Assembly: GCF_000011345.1 (NCBI RefSeq)
Contig: NC_004113.1
Location: 558,001 to 622,000 of the forward strand
Source: Thermosynechococcus vestitus BP-1
GTDB taxonomy: Bacteria; Cyanobacteriota; Cyanobacteriia; Thermosynechococcales; Thermosynechococcaceae
DNA: 64,000 nucleotides
Reading direction: 5' to 3'
Position 1 is the stretch's first letter. Each line of letters starts with the position of its first letter. Of the stretch, positions 40,374 through 43,505 are shown one piece after another. The notes under the pieces were generated by a model. The model did not search any database. It saw nothing but the letters and a program-made list of their open reading frames with translations, and was not told the DNA's origin. The position numbers and the translations under genes were made by a program.

Positions 40374-40471
40374 ATTATCTCTGATCGGCGAGCGATCGCC
40401 CAAGGGGAGGGTCTGGCGTCAACTCGACAAAATAAGGTCTAATAGGGAAGGTGATTGGGAGGGGATCAACC

Positions 40472-41200
40472 ATGGGCTGGCAGCGACCCGATGGCCGTCA
40501 ACCACAGGAATTGCGATCGCACCAGTTTCAGCGGCACTTTACCCAATTTGCCTTAGGATCGGTGCTCGCCCAAGCGGGGCAAACTCAAGTGCTGTGCACC
40601 GTCAGTTTCAAAGAGGGGGTACCCAAGTTTTTAGAAGGCACGGGCCAAGGCTGGCTCACCGCAGAGTACCGTATGCTGCCAAGTGCAACCCGGCCACGCC
40701 AAGAGCGAGAATTCCTCAAACTCTCTGGGCGCACCCAAGAAATTCAGCGCCTCATTGGTCGCAGTTTACGCTCCGCGGTGGACTTATCCTTGCTGGGGGA
40801 GTGCACACTCATTGTGGATGCCGATGTGCTTCAAGCCGATGCAGGCACGCGATCGCTGGCGATTACGGGTGGCTACATTGCCCTTGTGGATGCCCTTAGT
40901 GCCCTTCTTCAGCAGGGGGTCCTCCGCAAATCTCCCCTGCGTCATCAAGTGGCGGCAGTCTCCGTGGGTCTGATTGATGATGAACCCTATCTGGATTTGA
41001 GCTACGCTGAGGATGTGGCGGCCAGTGTAGACTTCAATGTGGTGATGACAGGCAGTGGTCAATTCATTGAGGTTCAGGGCACAGCGGAGATGGGTTCCTT
41101 CGACCGGGGAACCCTCGATCGCCTTCTCGATGTCGCCCGCCAAGGTATTCAAGAACTCATTGAGATTCAACAGCGTGTCTTAGCCCCAAGCCATGAGTGA
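40472..41200 (+). CDS. rph: Ribonuclease PH
   Basis: 242 residues; phosphorolytic 3'-end trimming of tRNA. Visible: [14 protein letters not shown], the phosphate-site [36 protein letters not shown] and [19 protein letters not shown]. The start ATG at 40472 has GGGAGGGG ~7 bp upstream; a GTG seven codons earlier is less likely. The end overlaps the following gene by 8 bp (ATGAGTGA), a sign of coupled translation. Confidence 0.95.
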
Positions 41201-41804
41201 GCAGGCCATCTACCTCGGACACATCGTCAAGTCCAACGCCCACTGCGATTATGTAGCACAACTGGTGGATCGCTTGGATGTGCCCCACCCCCCCGCCCCA
41301 GAAGACTATGGCTTTGGTCGTTTTGTCAAGCTTGAGGATGAGCAGCGCCACTGGGCGGTCGGGGTCATTTATAACTCTCAACTGTTGAATCCCCAGTTCC
41401 ATCAGCTCAGCCCTCGCCTCACCAGCAGTGCCGACACCTTTCTCAGTCCCGATTTAGTCAGTGAAACCCGCACACTCCTCTGGATTGCCCTGATTGGTCA
41501 TTTGGTTACTGGGGCGGGGGGAACCTACGGCCAGCAGGGGATGCCCACTCTTGTGGTGCCCGTCAATACACCCGTGTGGCAATTGACGACTGCGGAGGTG
41601 CTGGCCTTTCATCGCAATGCCGAAGGTCAAGCCCAGTTTCGCTACTATGCCCATTTGTTACGCTCAACGGGGAACTATGCAGCACCGCTGTTAGCCCAAA
41701 TTCTCGAAACCATTACACCCCTGTTCACGGGTACTGAGCAGCGATCGCTCGAAATTATCAGCAAAGAGTTGGCTTGGCGGCACACCTTGGGCAGCCTCCG
41801 CTAA
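41193..41804 (+). CDS. HAS-barrel-like cyanobacterial protein
   Basis: 203 residues, overlapping rph by 8 bp. The start [21 protein letters not shown] and following segment [20 protein letters not shown] resemble the small beta (HAS) barrel found at the N-terminus of HerA-like ATPases, but no Walker motif follows; the rest is helical. Cyanobacterial homologues of this kind are uncharacterised. The translational overlap with rph suggests a related job in RNA metabolism (inference). Confidence 0.7.
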
Positions 41805-41862: not shown

Positions 41863-41891
41863 TGACAAATCGAGGATTTTTCTGCTAAGGT
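41863..41891 (+). promoter_or_regulatory. Promoter of a predicted small RNA / comM leader
   Basis: TGACAA (41863-41868) and TAAGGT (41886-41891) with a 17-bp spacer form a good sigma-70-type promoter. Transcription would start near 41898. Confidence 0.55.
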
Positions 41892-41897
41892 CATTAA

Positions 41898-41970
41898 GTG
41901 TGTGAGGAGCGAACCAGTTAAGGGCACCGAGACGAAACACGGCCAGTCGTCGGTGCTCTTTCTGATTTTA
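41898..41970 (+). ncRNA. Candidate ~75-nt RNA with Yfr1-complementary 5' end
   Basis: A predicted transcript from the promoter at 41863-41891 to the terminator at 41922-41969. It would begin GUGUGUGAGGAGCGAACC; the 10 bases 41900-41909 (GUGUGAGGAG) are the exact complement of CUCCUCACAC, the conserved core of the sRNA Yfr1. A strong hairpin and U-rich tail follow. No open frame of useful size. It could be an independent RNA (sponge or target decoy) or an attenuated leader of comM, which starts 6 bp later. Confidence 0.5.
41922..41969 (+). terminator. Terminator/attenuator hairpin before comM
   Basis: GGGCACCGA (41922-41930) pairs with TCGGTGCTC (41950-41958), with one G-T pair. After one bulged base (41949), GAC/GTC extends the stem to 12 bp. 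TTTCTGATTTT follows. It lies immediately before the comM start, so it either ends a small RNA or attenuates comM. Confidence 0.7.
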
Positions 41971-41975
41971 AGGCT

Positions 41976-43505
41976 ATGCTGGCGCGGGTTTGGAGTGCTG
42001 CTGTTGTAGGAATTGACGCAATTCCCGTCGGCGTCGAAGTGGATGTTTCCGGCGGCCTACCGAGGACGGTGGTGGTGGGTCTGCCGGATGCTGGCGTTCA
42101 AGAGGCACGGGAGCGCGTTAGGGCGGCCATTCGTAACGCTGGTTTTAGCTTCCCAATGGGGCAAATTCTCGTCAATCTCACCCCCGCCGATTTACGCAAA
42201 GAAGGCCCCAGCTTTGATCTCCCCATTAGTATTGGCATCTTGGCCGCTTCAGGACAGGTGGCAACGGATTTACTCGGCGACCATCTTTTTCTCGGGGAAC
42301 TGTCCCTCGATGGGACTTTGCAACCCGTGGCAGGGGTACTGGCGATCGCCCTGGCAGCCCAGGCCCAAGGCATCACCGGCCTCGTGGTGCCCACAGCCAA
42401 TGCCACGGAAGCAGCCCTCGTGGGGGGGCTAAAGGTCTATGGTTGCCACACTCTCGCTGAAGTTGTAGCCTTTTTGCATGACCCTAGCTCGCGATCGCCG
42501 GCTACCCCCTCCCCCTGTTGGGCTGCCGCTGCCTCACCGCAATTTACCGTTGATCTCAAGGATGTTAAGGGGCAGTATCAGGCCCGGCGTGCCCTAGAAA
42601 TTGCCGCCGCCGGTGGGCACAATTTGATCTTTGTCGGGCCACCGGGGAGTGGCAAAACAATGTTGGCGCGGCGGTTACCAACAATCTTGCCCCCCTTGAC
42701 CTTTGCAGAAGCCCTTGAAGTCACGAAAATTCATTCCGTTGCTGGCTTGCTCAAAGAACGAGGGCAATTGCTCCAGGAGCCCCCCTTTCGTAGTCCTCAC
42801 CATTCTGCCTCCGGTGCTGCCCTGGTGGGGGGTGGCAGTTATCCGCGGCCCGGGGAAATCTCCCTGGCCCATCGGGGGGTGCTCTTTCTCGATGAATTGA
42901 CGGAATTCAAGCGGGATGTCTTGGAGCTGCTGCGGCAGCCCCTTGAGGATGGCCAAGTCAGCATTGCGCGCGCCCGCCAATCGGTGGTTTTTCCGGCTCA
43001 ATTTACCCTAGTGGCCAGTACAAATCCCTGCCCCTGTGGCTACTATGGTGATCCAGTGCAACCCTGTACCTGCTCACCGCGCCAGCGACAGCAGTATTGG
43101 GCAAAGCTCTCTGGCCCCCTGTTGGATCGCATTGATTTACAAGTGAGTGTCAGCCGCCTCAAACCAGAGGAAATGACCCGCCAACCCCTAGGGGAAGATT
43201 CAGCCACAGTGCGGCAGCGAGTTTTGGCAGCGCGATCGCGAGCACAACAGCGGTTTGCCGAGGAGCCCAATGTGCACTGCAATGCCCAAATGCAAAGTCA
43301 CCATCTGCGCCAGTGGTGTTCCTTGGATGACGCTTCGATCCATCTCCTAGAGAGGGCGATCGCCCAACTGGGGCTATCGGCGCGAGCCACAGACCGTATC
43401 CTAAAAGTAGCCCGTACCATTGCTGATCTGGCCGACTGTGAAACAATTACCTCTGCCCATGTGGCGGAAGCCATTCAATACCGCACAATTGACCGTCTGC
43501 AATAG
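41976..43505 (+). CDS. comM: YifB/ComM family Mg-chelatase-like AAA+ ATPase
   Basis: 509 residues. An N-terminal Lon-protease-like domain (PRTVVVGLPDAGVQEARERV; EGPSFDLPISIGILAASG) is followed by the AAA+ core with Walker A at ~221 (GPPGSGKTMLARRLP), Walker B LFLDELTEF, a Cys-rich insertion (STNPCPCGYYGDPVQPCTC), and a C-terminal domain (ARATDRILKVARTIADL). ComM is a hexameric helicase that promotes branch migration in natural transformation; Thermosynechococcus is naturally transformable. A terminator-like hairpin abuts the start. The end overlaps the next gene. Confidence 0.92.
   Translation: MLARVWSAAVVGIDAIPVGVEVDVSGGLPRTVVVGLPDAGVQEARERVRAAIRNAGFSFPMGQILVNLTPADLRKEGPSFDLPISIGILAASGQVATDLLGDHLFLGELSLDGTLQPVAGVLAIALAAQAQGITGLVVPTANATEAALVGGLKVYGCHTLAEVVAFLHDPSSRSPATPSPCWAAAASPQFTVDLKDVKGQYQARRALEIAAAGGHNLIFVGPPGSGKTMLARRLPTILPPLTFAEALEVTKIHSVAGLLKERGQLLQEPPFRSPHHSASGAALVGGGSYPRPGEISLAHRGVLFLDELTEFKRDVLELLRQPLEDGQVSIARARQSVVFPAQFTLVASTNPCPCGYYGDPVQPCTCSPRQRQQYWAKLSGPLLDRIDLQVSVSRLKPEEMTRQPLGEDSATVRQRVLAARSRAQQRFAEEPNVHCNAQMQSHHLRQWCSLDDASIHLLERAIAQLGLSARATDRILKVARTIADLADCETITSAHVAEAIQYRTIDRLQ

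Follow-up and report, generated by a model that had tools for sequence, protein, structure and literature searches.

Within the window analysed here (a stretch of 64,000 nucleotides from Thermosynechococcus vestitus BP-1, contig NC_004113.1), the gene for RNase PH is directly followed by a gene for a 203-residue protein of unknown family (neither NCBIfam nor Pfam gives a match at E 0.001). Further downstream, comM/yifB begins with an ATG at 41976 (TIGR00368 YifB, 710.9 bits; Pfam Mg_chelatase, ChlI and Mg_chelatase_C). The DNA between the latter two genes carries promoter-like hexamers and a predicted small RNA, denoted type B. The features are as follows.

40451-41200, rph (RNase PH), TIGR01966 match, preceding the 203-aa gene
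41193-41804, + strand, upstream neighbour, 203-aa protein from the list of open reading frames
41863-41868, + strand, -35-like hexamer TGACAA, 6/6 columns invariant in 11 genomes
41886-41891, + strand, -10-like hexamer TAAGGT, 17 bp after TGACAA, 6/6 columns invariant in 11 genomes
41896-41964, + strand, Yfr2-type (Cyano-1) small RNA, type B, RF01701 match
41900-41914, + strand, predicted Yfr1-pairing segment GTGTGAGGAGCGAAC, Watson-Crick paired to Yfr1 GUUCACUCCUCACAC at 14 of 15 positions, 10/10 columns invariant over its first 10 nt in 11 genomes
41920-41960, + strand, hairpin, stem 41920-41933 with 41946-41948 and 41950-41960, bulge 41949, loop 41934-41945
41961-41971, + strand, U-containing tail, possibly a leaky terminator, poorly conserved
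41976-43505, + strand, comM/yifB (Mg chelatase-like AAA ATPase), downstream neighbour and not part of the RNA

All the elements on which a preliminary description of this DNA was built (TGACAA-17 bp-TAAGGT, the motif GTGTGAGGAG, a hairpin and comM) are present where it had placed them, the motif at 41900-41909 at the 5' end of the type-B RNA. A simple consensus scan reports neither the TGACAA/TAAGGT promoter nor any terminator. From the promoter-like hexamers, a transcript start is predicted near 41897-41899; a literature search found no usable transcript-start or small-RNA data for Thermosynechococcus. The hairpin before comM, described earlier as a 12-bp stem, has a 14-bp stem (11 + 3 pairs with a 1-nt bulge) and a 12-nt loop, GAAACACGGCCA. 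Folded as a single sequence, the RNA is just modestly more stable than its shuffled versions (z-score -1.55), 12 of 200 of which equal or surpass it. Positions 41900-41909 are unpaired in the centroid and only weakly paired, at a few bases, in the minimum-energy fold, giving a mostly unpaired 5' end with a GUGAGGA motif.

The 2 kb around the locus were scanned against all 4227 Rfam families (E up to 1) and the sole match is RF01701 (Cyano-1) at 41896-41964 on the + strand, covering the model over its full 69 positions (38.2 bits, E = 1.7e-4, curated cut-off 41). Yfr2 RNAs carry the Cyano-1 motif, as stated in a paper on Limnospira that cites Gierga et al. 2009 (PMC8400943). According to Voss et al. 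2009, the hallmarks of the Yfr2 family are an unpaired conserved 5' end and a long stem that carries a loop of 12 nt, with a nearby bulge at -4 relative to this loop (PMC2662882). In type B the long stem and conserved 12-nt loop are as in the Yfr2 family, and the bulge, in the 3' strand of the stem, is three pairs away from the loop. Two RF01701 matches are found in each of 11 Thermosynechococcus genomes, one over the cut-off and one, type B, under it (36.5-40.9 bits against 41 in all 11 copies). Because its score falls just under the curated cut-off, default annotation would miss the type-B copy. The other copy in the same genome, a type-A paralogue (48.3 bits; L013 1501-1574, genome 1092076-1092149), passes the cut-off; its tail is more T-rich than that of type B and the register of its pairing with Yfr1 is shifted. 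It lies directly before a 191-aa ORF that resembles, by eye, an RsmD-type RNA methyltransferase. Voss et al. predicted one Yfr2 in T. elongatus BP-1, and their text on this point does not say which copy (PMC2662882).

RF01701 is found in all 29 genomes of the order sample, which belong to one family, and exceeds the cut-off in 28 of them; of the 194 genomes in the phylum sample 90 have a match, which passes the cut-off in 79. All 90 come from the same class or genus, and at least two genomes of that class, among the rows listed, are without a match. Type-B loci occur in 16 of the 18 genomes of other genera in the family, 14 recognized by pattern and two (G209 and G212) by eye. Six loci missed by the pattern were inspected singly (L077, L085, L094, L101, L104 and L106); L085 (G209) and L094 (G212) were classed as type B and kept outside the alignment, covariation and pairing counts, and the two RF01701 matches in each of G215 and G216 are not type B.

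Across the 11 Thermosynechococcus genomes the two hexamers are invariant in 12 of 12 columns (spacer 7/17) and the motif GTGTGAGGAG in 10 of 10. As comparison stretches, part of the 203-aa gene is invariant in 174 of 301 columns and the tail (41964-41975) in 4 of 12; the U-rich tail previously proposed is not a clean U-run. Covariation was assessed on 21 type-B copies, seven from the 11 Thermosynechococcus genomes (without G001, G002, G004 and G007) and 14 of the 16 from other genera. Changes on both sides are seen at 6 of the 14 stem pairs, a count reached by 1 of 500 shuffles, and 99.0% of stem cells are paired, against at most 68.4% when the stem is slid. The covariation score of the stem is reached by none of 500 shuffles; of the five covariation measures one, counting further pair types, is not special, since 122 of 500 shuffles match or exceed it. 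The loop sequence GAAACACGG, common to types A and B in the genus, is invariant in the 21 type-B rows.

All 29 genomes of the order sample have one Yfr1 (RF01116) match each over the cut-off; T. elongatus BP-1 is among the strains in which Yfr1 was tested by Northern (PMC2190773). A weak second match (23 bits) is seen in G009. With the Yfr1 of its own genome, GUGUGAGGAGCGAAC of the type-B RNA pairs at 14 of 15 positions with GUUCACUCCUCACAC. The pairing is kept at 14/15 in 19 of the 21 genomes compared and at 13/15 in two; in G218 and G214 one end pair of the duplex is lost. In G213, G211 and G207, GGAGCGAAC reads GGAAUGAAC, so that the mismatch moves and 14/15 is kept. Of the two loci classed by eye, that of G212 has a GGAAUGAAC-like shift of the mismatch with 14 pairs kept and that of G209 a G-U instead of one pair within the core complement. 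The type-A paralogue has GUGAGGAGUGAUUC, with 11 contiguous pairs to Yfr1.

On the Yfr1 side, 28 of 29 genomes are identical over 26 nt; because Yfr1 is nearly invariant, covariation between Yfr1 and type B gives no test of the pairing. In Yfr1, three bases of the GUUC tetranucleotide sit in its own predicted 5' stem, so the outer pairs with type B would need the base of that stem to open. The only Yfr1 of the 29 with GCUC instead of GUUC is that of G216 (L110, L082, L102), where neither Cyano-1 match is type B; one case proves nothing.

The predicted binding energy to Yfr1 (dimer minus monomer energy) is -21.4 kcal/mol for type B and -16.9 kcal/mol for the paralogue. This measure was adopted in place of a duplex score that ignores self-folding, by which the type B-Yfr1 pair is no better than shuffles. 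Neither energy is reached in 500 dinucleotide shuffles of the whole RNA, nor in 500 in which its first 24 bases are shuffled. Among 6394 overlapping 70-nt pieces of the window, two reach -21.4 kcal/mol; about 13 of those listed reach -16.9 kcal/mol, of which two overlap the type-B locus. Since other pieces of the window bind Yfr1 equally well by energy, energy alone would not single out type B or the paralogue.

The 10-mer GTGTGAGGAG by itself occurs at three places in the 2.59 Mb genome, against six for a reversed control, which is chance level; one of the three is the complement of Yfr1 itself. The third (genome 839741-839750; L003 1501-1510) lies antisense in an ORF resembling thiS by eye, just after a thioredoxin-like ORF; an mRNA from there would thus contain the sequence of the Yfr1 core, which is no more than chance would give. 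Thirty RF01701 loci were drawn from the top-scoring matches of the phylum search; in these the unbroken complement to the 11-nt Yfr1 core extends over 10-11 nt in 21, 8-9 nt in four and 5-7 nt in five. Complementarity to the Yfr1 core is a feature of the family and is not specific to this locus.

In this genome comM begins 15 bases after the type-B stem, and in 9 of the 11 Thermosynechococcus genomes its start lies 80-81 bases downstream of the first base of the RF01701 match. G001 and G009 keep the type-B RNA, with comM separated from it by a 237-aa gene that resembles a response regulator by eye (L022 1712-2425 and L018 1658-2371, respectively). Around the 16 type-B loci of other genera, tblastn finds no rph, 203-aa gene or comM within 1.5-2 kb on each side (less at contig ends). 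The association with comM does not extend across genomes: the gene is directly next to the RNA in nine of 11 genomes of the genus and at none of the 16 type-B loci elsewhere. In six genomes of one other genus (L090, L091, L092, L096, L097 and L100), type B has a different stable neighbour, lying about 300 bases before a conserved ORF of about 120 aa (MNDLPDF.KKAFYLG and similar).

Our reading is that the segment is very probably the gene of a ~70-nt RNA of the Yfr2 (Cyano-1) family that titrates Yfr1, and that it represents a second Yfr2 type in the genus and in most of the family. The covariance-model resemblance to the family, the conservation, the stem covariation and the Yfr1 complementarity are observed for the type-B RNA itself. 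Its transcription, its termination and the titration of Yfr1 we infer by transfer from Prochlorococcus and Nostoc. With Yfr2 of Prochlorococcus MED4 as bait, Yfr1 and Yfr10 were enriched; a reporter that Yfr1 repressed 3.8- to 4.7-fold in E. coli recovered when Yfr2 was co-expressed; and RNase E no longer cleaved Yfr2 in vitro once Yfr1 or Yfr10 was bound (PMC6778093). In Nostoc the pairing of Yfr1 with Yfr2 is shown by gel shifts, and the study proposes that Yfr1 is sequestered (PMC6974561). By this analogy the type-B RNA would be a trap for Yfr1. GUGUGAGGAGCGAAC at its 5' end would pair with the invariant Yfr1 core and the four bases before it, Yfr1 would be titrated and its targets relieved; the hairpin with its GAAACA-type loop would protect the RNA and serve as a (leaky) terminator. 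The preliminary description had suggested a sponge or decoy and knew of no such partner of Yfr1. The sponge reading gains support here, whereas the class of partner is not new, antagonism of Yfr1 and Yfr2 having been published (PMC6778093, PMC6974561). Both the family and the mechanism are known; the locus adds one member that lies under the database threshold.

The alternatives differ in what they make of comM and of the 5' segment. Were the locus simply a promoter of comM, its 10-base complementarity to Yfr1 a coincidence and its hairpin unrelated, the chance-level frequency of the 10-mer in the genome and a single-sequence z-score of only -1.55 would be as expected. This is extremely improbable in view of the full-length RF01701 match, the paralogue and the orthologues in all 11 genomes of the genus, the covarying stem, the invariant motif, and the persistence of RNA and motif at loci without comM beside them. 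What exceeds chance here is the full-length covariance match, the invariance of hexamers and motif, the stem covariation and the energy of Yfr1 binding against shuffles; the earlier prediction of a ~70-nt RNA with conserved promoter-like hexamers and a 5' end complementary to the Yfr1 core is upheld. A further possibility is an RNA acting chiefly in cis as the 5' leader of comM, in which the hairpin would usually stop transcription and Yfr1, bound at the 5' end, would alter read-through. The short distance to comM in nine genomes leaves little room for a second promoter, and in Synechocystis Yfr2b and Yfr2c share mapped start sites with slr0199 and sll1477 (PMC2662882). This is nevertheless very unlikely, as the RNA persists in the two genomes with an intervening gene and at the 16 loci that have none of the neighbouring genes nearby. 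Nor was an alternative fold found that links the Yfr1 site to the terminator, the stem having a probability of 0.98 both free and with the Yfr1 site blocked. A literature search found no paper naming both Yfr2 and comM. Since comM is not always its neighbour and the terminator stem is unaffected by blocking of the Yfr1 site, the type-B RNA is not a comM leader in function, and Yfr1-controlled attenuation of comM, raised in the preliminary description as an action on premature termination, is not supported, on the same two grounds.

A role for this Yfr2-type RNA mainly with mRNA or protein partners, through the GAAACACGG loop or 5' GGA motifs, is unlikely to be the principal one, yet is a good deal less remote than either explanation built on comM. 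The loop is shared by types A and B and invariant among the type-B rows, and the Yfr2 bait enriched 302 mRNAs in Prochlorococcus (PMC6778093). Voss et al. noted GGA/ANGGA motifs in Yfr2 RNAs, but no RsmA homologue in cyanobacteria (PMC2662882). Against it, the 5' segment is kept as a complement of Yfr1 even where, in three genomes, the mismatch has moved; the two roles are not mutually exclusive.

Compared with known systems, type B resembles Yfr2/RF01701 in size, conserved 5' end, occurrence in several copies per genome and complementarity to Yfr1, as well as in the long stem, the 12-nt GAAACA-type loop, the bulge near the loop and the position, seen in some cases, directly before a protein gene. 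It differs in scoring just under the cut-off, in its weak and poorly conserved tail and in having comM as neighbour in most genomes of the genus; from type A it differs in pairing through GUGUGAGGAGCGAAC (14/15 with Yfr1) rather than through the 11 contiguous pairs of GUGAGGAGUGAUUC. Like Prochlorococcus MED4 Yfr2, the antagonist of Yfr1 and Yfr10, it would be a small RNA binding another small RNA via complementary motifs, the binding being predicted for type B and demonstrated for MED4 by pull-down and reporter (PMC6778093). In lying immediately before a protein gene it is like Yfr2b and Yfr2c of Synechocystis PCC 6803; there slr0199 and sll1477 seem to be cotranscribed from the Yfr2b and Yfr2c start sites, from which read-through was inferred (PMC2662882), whereas here the downstream gene is comM and the start is predicted rather than mapped. 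In nine of the 11 genomes comM probably receives some read-through from the type-B promoter, as the gap is short and Synechocystis offers a precedent; this would be a by-product of position and not what the RNA is for.

More tentatively, type B may be a separate, family-wide class of Yfr2 tuned for Yfr1, competing with the shifted-register type A for a single Yfr1, its promoter in Thermosynechococcus also driving comM. This reading, possible but doubtful as it stands, starts from the complementarity beyond the 11-nt core into the base of the Yfr1 5' stem, held at 13-14 of 15 positions despite the moving mismatch. The Rfam cut-off hides a second Yfr2 copy in each Thermosynechococcus genome, and two Yfr2 types facing one nearly invariant Yfr1 offer a clean set for testing selection on sRNA-sRNA pairing outside the core. 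If read-through holds, expression of comM would follow a Yfr2 promoter in most strains of the genus; should the more tentative reading also be true, this competence gene would stand under the signal that controls a Yfr1 trap.
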